Below, in pieces: positions 2,172 through 18,933 of a stretch of 21,752 nt of DNA (positions are counted from its first letter, which is position 1; each line of letters starts with the position of its first letter). The stretch spans positions 1 to 21,752 of IMG/VR virus record IMGVR_UViG_3300002835_001258. The stretch is one strand, 5' to 3'. This stretch comes from a virus. The notes under the pieces are model-generated. The model searched no databases. It was not told the DNA's origin and saw only the letters and a program-made list of their open reading frames with translations. The position numbers and the translations under genes were made by a program.

Positions 2172-2410
2172 TTGAGCGCGTTGGACACAACCCCGGCGAA
2201 GAGCGTGGCGACCAAATCAAAGGGAGCCGGATGTTCCGCGATTGGTGCTACGCATGTGGAGAAGCGATTCGGATGACGAGTCGCGGAGCGTGCGACGGCA
2301 ACAACCAATGCACGGAGTGCCGTGGGGCTGGGACGGAAGCACAGCGTACTGCGGAGATGTGGCAATACCTCACGCCGCGTCAGCAGCACGGGAAAAGAAA
2401 TACAGGCTGA
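2168..2410 (+). CDS. Zinc-ribbon small protein
   Basis: 80-residue protein starting at GTG 2168, coupled to the preceding gene by a GTGA overlap and preceded by AAGGGGA. It has four cysteines in a CYAC...CTEC arrangement (about residues 29, 32, 51, 54), separated by a polar loop, the pattern of a zinc ribbon. The remainder is basic and polar (C-terminus PRQQHGKRNTG). Such small zinc-binding proteins are common in phage early regions and usually bind nucleic acid or a host protein. Its stop codon is the start of the csrA leader, so it may be cotranscribed with csrA. No specific function can be assigned. Confidence 0.65.
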   Translation: MIERVGHNPGEERGDQIKGSRMFRDWCYACGEAIRMTSRGACDGNNQCTECRGAGTEAQRTAEMWQYLTPRQQHGKRNTG

Positions 2411-2460
2411 CGGATCGCTAGTTGCCCACGGACGGGCTTTTCACACACAACTAACAGGAG
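2410..2460 (+). promoter_or_regulatory. csrA leader with candidate CsrA-binding hairpin
   Basis: A 4-bp GC stem (2424-2427 with 2434-2437) presents the hexaloop ACGGAC at 2428-2433 closed by C-G, which is the ANGGA-in-a-hexaloop form of CsrA/RsmE sites; the run CACGGACG matches the CANGGANG consensus. A second ACGGA lies at 2410-2414, and the Shine-Dalgarno of csrA itself contains AGGA (2456-2459). An outer dyad TAGTTG (2419-2424)/CAACTA (2448-2453) could extend the fold. The layout fits CsrA repressing its own translation. Four T at 2438-2441 leave a weak terminator as an alternative. Confidence 0.5.
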
Positions 2461-2468
2461 CCGCAGGG

Positions 2469-3433: not shown

Positions 3434-4193
3434 CCTGTTGTTTGATCCGGCGAAGAAACAACGCCCGAGGAGACTCATGGTCTACGGGCCTGACGGCGTC
3501 GGCAAATCGACATTCGCGGCGTCGGCTCCTGATCCGGTGTTTGTCACAACCGAGGACGGGCTGCGGGGGATCAAAGGGGCGATCCAATTCCCTGTCGCAA
3601 AAGACCTCGAAACATTCTGCGGCTACGTCGCGGCGCTCAAAGACCCGTCTCACGGACGCAAAACGCTGGTCGTTGATTCGACTACCGGCCTGACAAAGCT
3701 GATCGACGCCTGTGTTGCCGCGAAGGCCGGGAAGGCGTCGGTCGTCGAGATCGGGTTCGGCAAGGAACGGCCACTCCAACGCGAGGCGTGGGATGGCGTG
3801 CTCAATCTGATCGAGGATGTTTCGCTCGCAGCCAACATGACGGTTGTGCTGCTGGGCCACGCCAAGAACGACAGCTTCAAACCGCCCGACGGCGACAACT
3901 ACAACCGCTGGGTGCCGAAGCTGCCGGACGAATGCCGGATGGCCGTGTGTGAGTGGTGCGACGAATACTTTTTCGCGACCTACAAGGTGTTCACCAAATC
4001 GGAAGGCGAAGGCAAGGCCGCGACACGGAAAGCGATCGGCTCCGGCGACCGGATCATGAAGACGACGGGGGCGGGGGCGTTCCTCGCCAAGAGACGGATT
4101 GAGATGCCCGACGAATTGCCGCTTTCGTGGGATGCGTACCAGTATTACGTCGACGGCGGCACCGACGAACAAACGAACGGAGGGAAGTTCTGA
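3414..4193 (+). CDS. Sak4-like AAA/RecA-fold ATPase (phage recombination)
   Basis: 259-residue RecA-fold ATPase. The Walker A motif GPDGVGKST is at residues 25-33 and Walker B KTLVVDS ends near 89; GHAKND at about 150 fits the sensor region. The family (AAA_24, Sak4-type single-strand annealing/RecA-core proteins) helps phage recombination and is typically encoded next to a DUF669 or SSB-type gene, as here. The start is TTG 3414 because AAGGGGA lies 6 bases before it and it leaves a normal N-terminus; the later ATG at 3477 would leave only a few residues before Walker A. The stop overlaps the next ATG (TGATG). Family call is strong; the exact DNA activity is inferred. Confidence 0.88.
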   Translation: MAESILDLLFDPAKKQRPRRLMVYGPDGVGKSTFAASAPDPVFVTTEDGLRGIKGAIQFPVAKDLETFCGYVAALKDPSHGRKTLVVDSTTGLTKLIDACVAAKAGKASVVEIGFGKERPLQREAWDGVLNLIEDVSLAANMTVVLLGHAKNDSFKPPDGDNYNRWVPKLPDECRMAVCEWCDEYFFATYKVFTKSEGEGKAATRKAIGSGDRIMKTTGAGAFLAKRRIEMPDELPLSWDAYQYYVDGGTDEQTNGGKF

Positions 4194-4675
4194 TGGGGAA
4201 CCTGGGCGACGTGTTTGGCGGTCAGTCGGCGAACGACATCGAGGAGCGGTCTTTCGACGTGCTTCCGATGGGCGATTACACGCTGGTCGTGACAGCCAGC
4301 GAAACGAAGACCACGAAGAGCGGAAACGGCACGTACCTGAGTTGCACGATGGAGATCGTCGAGGGCCAGCACAAGGGCCGCAAGCTGTTCGCGAACTTCA
4401 ACATCAAGAACCCGAACGCCGAGGCGGTGTCGATCGCGCGTGCGGAACTGGCGGCGTTGTGTCGGGCTGTGCGAGTGCCGAACCCGAAGGATTCGAGCGA
4501 ACTTCACGACAAACCCTTCGACGCCCGGATCGGCATCGAGAAGCGGAAGGACACCGGCGAAGCGCAGAACCGCATCAAGAAGTACGCGGTGCGTGGCGGT
4601 CTCGGTGCGACTCCGGCGGGAGCGACGACCGGCGGCGGTCAAGCGACGAGCGACAAGAAGCCTTGGGAACGATGA
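4193..4675 (+). CDS. DUF669 family protein (likely ssDNA-binding partner)
   Basis: 160 residues starting at ATG 4193, overlapping the ATPase stop and preceded by GGAGGGAAG. The middle part, with GDYTLVVTASETKTTKSGNG, SCTMEIVEGQHKGRKLF and FNIKNPNAEAVSIARAELAA, is the pattern of the DUF669 phage family, found beside Sak4-type ATPases and suspected to bind single-stranded DNA. The C-terminal 30 residues are Gly/Ala/Thr-rich and flexible and end KKPWER, like the disordered tails of SSB-type proteins though not acidic. It is followed by a hairpin and T-run, which may lower expression of the next genes relative to this one. Confidence 0.82.
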   Translation: MGNLGDVFGGQSANDIEERSFDVLPMGDYTLVVTASETKTTKSGNGTYLSCTMEIVEGQHKGRKLFANFNIKNPNAEAVSIARAELAALCRAVRVPNPKDSSELHDKPFDARIGIEKRKDTGEAQNRIKKYAVRGGLGATPAGATTGGGQATSDKKPWER

Positions 4676-4736: not shown

Positions 4737-5240
4737 ATGCCACCGTTTTACAAACTGACGGACGCGCTGGAACAGCTTTACGAATCGATCACCGTCGGCG
4801 AGGACGGCAGTATCGACGAGGAGACGCGGGCCACGCTGGAAGCGATGCAACAGCCGTGGCGCGAGAAGGCGATCAACATCGCGCGGCTGGCCAAGAACCT
4901 GAGCGGCGAACTGGCCGCCTACGAACAGCACGAAGCGACGATCAAGGCGCGGCGGATGAGGATCGAGAAGCAAGTCGACCAACTCAAGAGCTATCTCCGC
5001 GAGAACATGGAGCGGCTTGGCGAAACGTCGGTCGAGGAAGGGACGATCAAGGTGCGGTTGTGTCGCAACGCTCAACCGACGGTCGTGCTGCAAGAATTGG
5101 GGCTGCACAACGTGCCGGCGGCGTTTGTGATTCATCCGGAACCGATTCTCGACAAGCGGAAGTGCCTGGAGCACCACAAGCGGGGTGAGTCGATCACCGG
5201 GGTCGAGTTTCTTGTCGGTCATCATGTGCGGATTTCGTGA
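4737..5240 (+). CDS. Siphovirus Gp157-like protein
   Basis: 167 residues, close to the usual length of the Gp157 family. The N-terminal half is a long charged coiled-coil-like helix set (about 30-105, with REKAINIARLAKNLSGELAA and RRMRIEKQVDQLKSYLRENM), and the C-terminal part is a short beta region (GTIKVRLCRNAQPTVVL). Gp157 was described in streptococcal siphoviruses and linked to phage resistance phenotypes; family members are common beside Sak4/DUF669-type recombination genes, as here. Biochemical role is not settled. GAGGGGAG just before the ATG supports the start. The stop overlaps the next gene's start. Confidence 0.82.
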   Translation: MPPFYKLTDALEQLYESITVGEDGSIDEETRATLEAMQQPWREKAINIARLAKNLSGELAAYEQHEATIKARRMRIEKQVDQLKSYLRENMERLGETSVEEGTIKVRLCRNAQPTVVLQELGLHNVPAAFVIHPEPILDKRKCLEHHKRGESITGVEFLVGHHVRIS

Positions 5241-5929
5241 TGAGTAATGACAACCTTGCTGGCGTGTTTGGTGAGTACGGCGACGCACGATGCGTTCCTG
5301 ACCGCATGTCATCGAAGTGGTCGTTTCCAACCAAGGCGTTTGGGATCACGTTTCGCAGCCGAACGGAAGCGCGATGGGCGATGGTGTTCAATGCGTTGAC
5401 AGAACACTGGGCCTATGAACCCGAGTTATTCAAGTTCCGCGAGTTTTGGTACAAGCCGGACTTTTATCTTTACGATGACGAGACGTTCGTCGAGGTGAAG
5501 CCGGACCACGTTAGCAAGACAGAAGCCCGCAAGATTTTGAATGTTTGCGTGAGGACAAGCCGCCCTGTGTTATTGCTTCGCGGCAACCCGTCGCGAGACA
5601 TTCAGAAGTGCGCAGTATTCAACAAGGCGACAAGCGGCTTTTATTTTGAGCACAGAAGGTTTGCCGATGGATGCTGCCCCTCTGGCGGGGCGGTATGTCC
5701 AGAGAATGAGTATTGCGACACGGAATGGTGCGACTTCTCGAAGGCGAACATCTTTCTTGATAGCGGCTGCGAGGTCGTAAGGACCATCGGCAGTTCTGCT
5801 GCGGAAAGTTTTTTGACGCAAAAGTGTCGATTCTGTGGTCCATGCGTTGATTACATGGAACGCTCCGGAATCGCTATTGGTAGAACCTGGGACAACGTAG
5901 ACAACGCAGCCGCACACATTTTCGGCTGA
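5240..5929 (+). CDS. PD-(D/E)xK nuclease-like protein with Cys-rich tail
   Basis: 229 residues. The N-terminal half carries the restriction-endonuclease-fold signature: Glu43 in SRTEARWA, Asp74 in YKPDF and Glu85-Val-Lys87 in TFVEVKP, at the spacing seen in TnsA-like and phage endonucleases. The C-terminal half has nine cysteines between 145 and 202, including CRFCGPC at 196-202, which suggests one or two zinc sites. It probably cuts DNA, with the zinc region for target binding, during recombination, replication or host DNA breakdown. ATG 5240 overlaps the preceding stop; GTG 5237 is an alternative. Base composition looks lower in GC than neighbours, which may mean later acquisition. Activity is inferred from motifs only. 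Confidence 0.72.
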   Translation: MSNDNLAGVFGEYGDARCVPDRMSSKWSFPTKAFGITFRSRTEARWAMVFNALTEHWAYEPELFKFREFWYKPDFYLYDDETFVEVKPDHVSKTEARKILNVCVRTSRPVLLLRGNPSRDIQKCAVFNKATSGFYFEHRRFADGCCPSGGAVCPENEYCDTEWCDFSKANIFLDSGCEVVRTIGSSAAESFLTQKCRFCGPCVDYMERSGIAIGRTWDNVDNAAAHIFG

Positions 5930-18804: not shown

Positions 18805-18826
18805 GGGGCACGGATGCCCTGTTTTT
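18805..18826 (+). promoter_or_regulatory. Hairpin with ACGGAT hexaloop and T-run; candidate CsrA site
   Basis: G-rich arm 18805-18809 pairs with GCCCT at 18816-18820 (outermost pair G-U), leaving the hexaloop ACGGAT (18810-18815) closed by C-G: the textbook CsrA-binding shape, with CACGGATG matching CANGGAUG. Five T follow at 18822-18826, so an intrinsic terminator is the rival reading. It lies 14 bases before the 18841 gene, ahead of its GAGGTG ribosome site. The same loop type is found in the csrA leader of this phage. Confidence 0.5.
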
Positions 18827-18840
18827 CTGTGAGGTGCAGC

Positions 18841-18933
18841 ATGGTCAAACGGATGCTCGACCTCGCTGAGTTTGCGTTGTGGCTGGTTCTCGCCGCTGTG
18901 GCGTGCTGGGCCTATCGATTGTTGGAGCCGTGA
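18841..18933 (+). CDS. Small single-pass membrane protein (30 aa)
   Basis: 30 residues: MVKRMLDLAEF, then a hydrophobic helix ALWLVLAAVACWAYRLL, ending in EP. ATG 18841 has GAGGTG 4-9 bases upstream, and its stop TGA overlaps the next ATG. Short, but start signals and coupling support it. It lies directly after the ACGGAT hairpin, so it may be controlled by the phage CsrA. Possible roles include membrane modulation or toxin-like action; nothing shows which. Confidence 0.55.
   Translation: MVKRMLDLAEFALWLVLAAVACWAYRLLEP

Follow-up and report, generated by a model that had tools for sequence, protein, structure and literature searches.

The complex of RsmE with hcnA RNA was solved with an ACGGAU hexaloop (PMC4005645), and the CsrA sites obtained by SELEX favour hexaloops presented on stems of no more than four pairs (PMC7652899). 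One CsrA dimer can bridge two sites that lie 10–63 nucleotides apart (PMC4066749). In the glgC leader of E. coli, a GGA hairpin is present just 5' of the Shine-Dalgarno (SD) sequence, followed by a site at the SD, and the two are bridged by a CsrA dimer that is anchored at the hairpin and then occupies the SD (PMC7652899). The autoregulation of bacterial csrA is established, and E. coli CsrA was found to repress its own translation via four leader sites, one of them over the SD (PMC7652899). The csrA genes of phage genomes are documented (PMC7366521), with the RsmM type in P. aeruginosa phages and PTXU04_00028 as examples, and the knock-down of one phage csrA resulted in smaller plaques (PMC11879866). 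No study of phage csrA leaders or of their autoregulation was found in the open-licence literature; the control of phage csrA genes, and phage RNAs as targets of CsrA, are an almost untested field.

The window (the whole stretch of DNA that was analysed) is an IMG/VR viral contig of 21,752 bp, and one of its minus-strand ORFs is integrase-like. Because of this, "temperate phage" appears a safer label than "prophage", the term of the original prediction, which the record does not establish. The csrA gene of the window was found on the plus strand at 2469–2846, with the ATG start at 2469, and encodes 125 amino acids. Residues 1–46 matched PF02599 above its curated cut-off (E-value 4.7e-19; 68.5 bits, cut-off 27), followed by a C-terminal extension of about 79 residues that contained three cysteines (C56, C74, and C77). 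The extension (2607–2843) gave no family match. In P. aeruginosa phages, the CsrA proteins that are of similar length carry an extension that looks different. The residues L4, T5, R6, R7, and R44 have RNA-binding roles in CsrA/RsmE. When compared with the RNA-contact residues of E. coli CsrA and RsmE, L4, R6, and R44 were kept in the phage protein, R7 was substituted with E, and T5 was substituted with S.

The 60-nucleotide leader of csrA contained, from 5' to 3' on the plus strand, an ACGGA site, a hairpin, a TTTT run, the SD AGGA, and a site on the start codon. The ACGGA site (2410–2414) is a part of UGACGGA (2408–2414), where the A that completes the TGA stop codon (2408–2410) of an ORF at 2168–2410 also opens the ACGGA. 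This plus-strand ORF has a weak zinc-ribbon-like match and is located between a small membrane-type ORF on the same strand (MDVVYSEQLIGALCGAVCSVLFGVAFLLQGDGPS; 2067–2171) and the hairpin. The hairpin (2424–2437) is composed of GCCC (2424–2427), an ACGGAC hexaloop of ANGGAN type (2428–2433), and GGGC (2434–2437), with a C-G closing pair, and its loop lies 18 nucleotides 3' of the upstream ACGGA, a spacing inside the range that one dimer can bridge. The UUUU run (2438–2441) follows the stem immediately, the SD AGGAGC is at 2456–2461 (AGGA at 2456–2459), and a CARGGAUG-type site, CAGGGAUG (also written CAGGGATG), covers the start codon at 2464–2471. The stem, both ACGGA sites, and the SD within 60 bases of the csrA start were present as originally predicted, and the proposed CsrA/RsmE type of the hexaloop was borne out by the type and size of the loop, the C-G pair that closes it, and the shortness of the stem (PMC4005645, PMC7652899). 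The UUUU run, the start-codon site, and a second perfect ANGGAN hairpin at 18806–18819 had been omitted there.

The leader resembles that of glgC in the GGA hairpin just 5' of the SD and in the site at the SD, and that of E. coli csrA in the several GGA sites of its own leader, one over the SD. Unlike glgC, the window hairpin, a candidate CsrA site, is followed by UUUU, is located just 3' of a stop codon, and has no conserved place with respect to the downstream gene. Unlike E. coli csrA, the gene is a phage gene with a C-terminal extension, and in relatives the hairpin is displaced from it by a tRNA or a tRNA-like stretch. The RBS stem-loop of hcnA from P. fluorescens shares the ACGGAU-type hexaloop and the C-G closing pair (PMC4005645); it encompasses the RBS, whereas the stem of the window is 4–5 bp long and leaves the RBS outside. 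The leaders of 12 annotated phage csrA genes, unlike the window, contained no GGA hairpin, and in most of them the only site was near the SD.

A perfect 4-bp ANGGAN hairpin was found in 0.02% of the dinucleotide shuffles of the 60-nucleotide leader. When the whole window was shuffled, 0.54 such hairpins per strand were expected; the plus strand had three, of which those at 2424 and 18806 were located in leaders, and the minus strand had none. The expectation of 0.54 speaks for a reading without any RNA-level regulatory role, in which the hairpin is due to chance or marks a DNA boundary for tRNA-cassette exchange; we consider this reading improbable, and the conservation that bears on it is given below with the relatives. 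The CSRA_TARGET rule (Kulkarni et al., PMC4066749) asks for at least three A(N)GGA-type sites, one of them in the SD region, with at least two pairs 10–60 nucleotides apart. The csrA of the window was selected by this rule, with GGA cores at -57, -39, -12, and -2. Applied to positions -60 to +5, the rule selected csrA and no other among 34 gene starts, which were picked by eye from the ORF table with a few approximate positions, and 4 of the 811 ATG/GTG positions. With the published 200/30-nucleotide window, 4 of the 34 genes were selected, csrA included. The presence of paired and start-overlapping sites within one 60-nucleotide leader, and the four-site repression of E. coli csrA (PMC7652899), favour a dedicated autogenous operator, i.e., a hairpin that evolved so that the phage CsrA limits its own translation. 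We regard such an operator as quite unlikely, and the evidence against it comes from the relatives and from other csrA leaders.

A 35-nucleotide module consisting of ACGGA on a stop codon, the 18-nucleotide spacing, a hairpin with an ACGGAU loop, and UUUU was found in two relative lineages, both reachable without the hairpin as a query. The first (L002/L007, one contig) was found via the CsrA protein, which is 97% identical, and the second (L151/L149) was found by the hairpin pattern and, independently, by a pattern from a 133-nucleotide upstream block. The UGACGGA heptamer was also kept in both. It is the stop codon of the small membrane-type ORF that opens the module in these relatives, and the zinc-ribbon-like ORF was not present at the same place in either. 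L007 contained TGACGGAGCGGTGAGTGCCCACGGATGGGCCTTTT where the small membrane ORF stops, followed by a tRNA gene at 4192–4263 (ARAGORN; Rfam 43.7 bits), of which the first base stands right after the TTTT, 5' of csrA. L151 contained TGACGGATCGGTGAGTGCCCACGGATGGGCGTTTT, followed by about 400 nucleotides with two tRNA-like-ended stretches and then by a csrA of 60 amino acids. These two stretches (4829–4947 and about 5057–5189) are about 120–130 nucleotides each, start with GGATCGG, and end with a T-arm and a matching 7-nucleotide acceptor strand; the first starts directly after the TTTT of the hairpin. They are called only tRNA-like, since neither ARAGORN nor Rfam gave a call for them as true tRNAs. 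At the csrA start, both lineages kept CAAGGATG, with CAAGGAUG at the start-codon site, and an AGGA-type SD (the SD of the window kept in L007, AAGGAGG in L151). A further record of 61 kb (L006) contained GTGCCCACGGATGGGCTTTTTCAC, also with an ACGGAU loop, just 5' of the SD of an early gene other than csrA and beside a divergent integrase-like ORF; no csrA was detected in this record.

Across the relatives, the module was 77–94% identical over 35 nucleotides against 56–63% for the small ORF, and the csrA DNA was 56–58% identical to that of L151. Between the window and L151, the identity was 80% in the module, 61% in the small ORF, 56% in the first 141 nucleotides of csrA, and 86% in the upstream noncoding block; the module and the block, both noncoding, were thus better kept than the surrounding coding sequence. 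The stem was identical in all relatives, several of which were found by the stem sequence. No nucleotide relatives of 1910–2480 were found in annotated phages or plasmids, and Rfam scans of the window and the leader regions gave no known RNA family except the tRNA of L007. The start of that tRNA exactly after the TTTT would fit a boundary for cassette exchange, but the module has outlasted the divergence of the flanking ORFs, with both ACGGA sites and their 18-nucleotide spacing kept, which argues against a hairpin without a role in RNA.

An ANGGAN hairpin within 100 nucleotides of the start was found in none of 18 distinct further csrA leaders, which came from 12 annotated phages, L004, L005, L002, and the bacterial genome contigs L009, L011, and L012 (L010 repeats L005); 17 of the 18 belong to more distant csrA genes, and the remaining one is the 97%-identical L002. 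Most of these leaders contained a single ANGGA, at the SD. The search of bacterial genome contigs returned only distant CsrA genes, without GGA hairpins. Within the window family, the loop was kept yet shifted away from csrA. Homologues thus did not keep the hairpin in cis with csrA, and outside the window family csrA was kept without the loop, the outcome that the original prediction had named as refuting it. Since a tRNA or about 400 nucleotides intervene before csrA in the relatives, L006 has another gene, and the 18 leaders are without the hairpin, the module, judged by its conserved position, is best assigned to the small ORF that precedes it, as a part of the 3' end. The hairpin was conserved away from csrA in L007, L151, and L006, which together with the 18 leaders stands against the dedicated operator. 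The original proposal of a self-limiting CsrA stands in part: the multi-site rule selects csrA, this is unusual among gene starts, and the SD and start-codon sites are kept in two lineages; the same comparisons do not support csrA control as the purpose of the hairpin. To judge from the conserved place, the UUUU, and the tRNA that follows in L007, the hairpin has been kept for a reason other than csrA autoregulation. Self-control of csrA via the hairpin would be particular to the window phage, because the element is conserved at the 3' end of the small cistron upstream, and a more general autoregulation of csrA would rest on the start-proximal sites.

The main rival of CsrA binding is that the hairpin and UUUU serve the upstream small cistron as a leaky intrinsic terminator or as a 3'-end-forming hairpin, with an incidental GGA loop; we hold this as a serious possibility, well below an even chance. 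Four or five U were found directly or one base after the stem in the window, L007, L151, L006, and L145. In the window, L007, and L151 the module opens at a stop codon, and in L006 and L145 stop codons are 13–17 nucleotides away. The tRNA of L007 begins right after the UUUU, and cleavage by RNase P at the 5' end of the tRNA would produce the same hairpin-UUUU terminus. The stem and U run of the window are those of short phage terminators of the form GCCC-N6-GGGC-UUUU, and hairpins with GCCC-N6-GGGC-UUUUCA are common in viral contigs. We scanned IMG/VR for such hairpins (GCCC-N6-GGGC-TTTTCA) as controls, and at least 120 matches were obtained, with 106 distinct contexts among those listed. Unlike the window, an ANGGAN loop was present in 0 of 120 controls among the matches listed, and an ANGGA starting 12–24 nucleotides 5' of the loop was present in 2 of the 106 distinct contexts among them. 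The short run of four or five U and the stem of 4–5 bp (-7.3 to -7.8 kcal/mol) also speak against a terminator; the window hairpin (4-bp stem, UUUU) falls below the terminator-scan threshold of 5 pairs and 5 T. The stretch from the UUUU to the tRNA in L007, or to the SD in the window, is too short for a promoter, and none was predicted nearby; transcription must therefore read through.

Among the lineages with GCCCACGGAYGGGC hairpins followed by T, an upstream ANGGA was found in the window family (18 nucleotides), L006 (17 nucleotides), and L150 (15 nucleotides), and was absent in L145, L146, and L148, so that 3 of the 6 lineages have the pair. The lower frequency of paired GGA sites in the controls (2 of 106) than in the lineages (3 of 6) favours CsrA-type binding over a plain terminator, but it is suggestive only, because the comparison was framed after the spacing had been seen, the six lineages are few and were chosen by hairpin sequence, and the base composition of the controls was unmatched.

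The hairpin alone is stable (-7.3 kcal/mol for the 4-bp stem). The predicted fold of 2400–2490 did not contain it, and this fold was no more stable than shuffles (z 0.05), which is a point in favour of the reading without an RNA-level role. The pair probability of the hairpin varied with the transcript ends from 0.006 to about 1; it was about 0.95 for the RNA 2411–2442 or 2411–2470 and 0.006–0.07 for several longer RNAs. Because the isolated hairpin is stable and several longer RNAs largely exclude it, the hairpin could form during transcription and is not guaranteed in the finished leader.

The loop, the closing pair, and the stem length match known Csr/Rsm sites, and the arrangement is glgC-like; for these reasons, CsrA-type binding is the most likely function, with the hairpin as one half of a two-site (bivalent) CsrA/Rsm-type RNA element, a reading that we hold tentatively and at slightly less than even confidence. 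The multi-site rule, the paired site in three lineages, the conservation of the module, and the retained L4, R6, and R44 also speak for it. A CsrA dimer, of the phage or of the host, would grip the ACGGA at the stop codon and the ACGGAY loop of the hairpin. In the window phage, this bivalent site may additionally repress csrA: as the element is in the csrA leader, the bound CsrA could reach the SD AGGA and CAGGGAUG at the start codon, and the translation of csrA could be repressed. The sequences, their conservation, and their arrangement are as described above, and from them we infer binding, bridging, and repression. Several points are against the bivalent element, namely that the hairpin is not beside csrA in two lineages, that the 18 leaders are without it, that the fold often excludes it, that R7 is substituted with E, and that 3 of the 6 lineages are without the pair. 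The finding is best described as an unusually placed candidate for a type of RNA site that is already known.

The bivalent element and the terminator may also be combined. The module would then be a CsrA-gated boundary, in which a two-site element is coupled to a hairpin that acts as a leaky terminator or forms the 3' end. CsrA of the phage or the host would set the readthrough from the early small cistron to the tRNA/csrA segment; alternatively, the 3' end, once released, would serve with its two GGA sites as a small sponge for CsrA. We consider this combination unlikely; if it is true, the element would be common to phages with and without their own csrA. With bivalent CsrA binding as the preferred reading, a compact and conserved two-site element, shared by a csrA-bearing family and a phage in which no csrA was detected, offers a short RNA for direct measurement of binding by phage and host CsrA.

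Other elements of similar kind were found in the window and its relatives. The second ANGGAN hairpin on the plus strand (18806–18819), found by the sequence scan, is GGGC-ACGGAU-GCCC followed by TGTTTTT and lies 21 nucleotides before the ATG at 18841. The ORF at 18841 encodes 30 amino acids of membrane type, with a further ACGGAUG just inside it (18849–18855). Judged by its motifs, this hairpin together with the site at 18849–18855 is a second candidate CsrA target.

The 133-nucleotide noncoding block was found at 1916–2048 in the window, 3902–4033 in L007, and 4532–4659 in L151; it is 82–94% identical among them, and the adjacent ORFs have diverged much further. In L151, both arms of one predicted stem of the block are shorter. 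The block terminates in GACCC...GGGTC and a T run. No match to Rfam was found for the block, which is possibly an early leader RNA. A role of the block (1916–2048) as a CsrA sponge was set aside, with few GGA and a fold no more stable than shuffles. In L151, a hairpin AGCC-ACGGAG-GGCT was found at 5382–5395, and its loop contained the SD of the gene after csrA, a CsrA-like arrangement.
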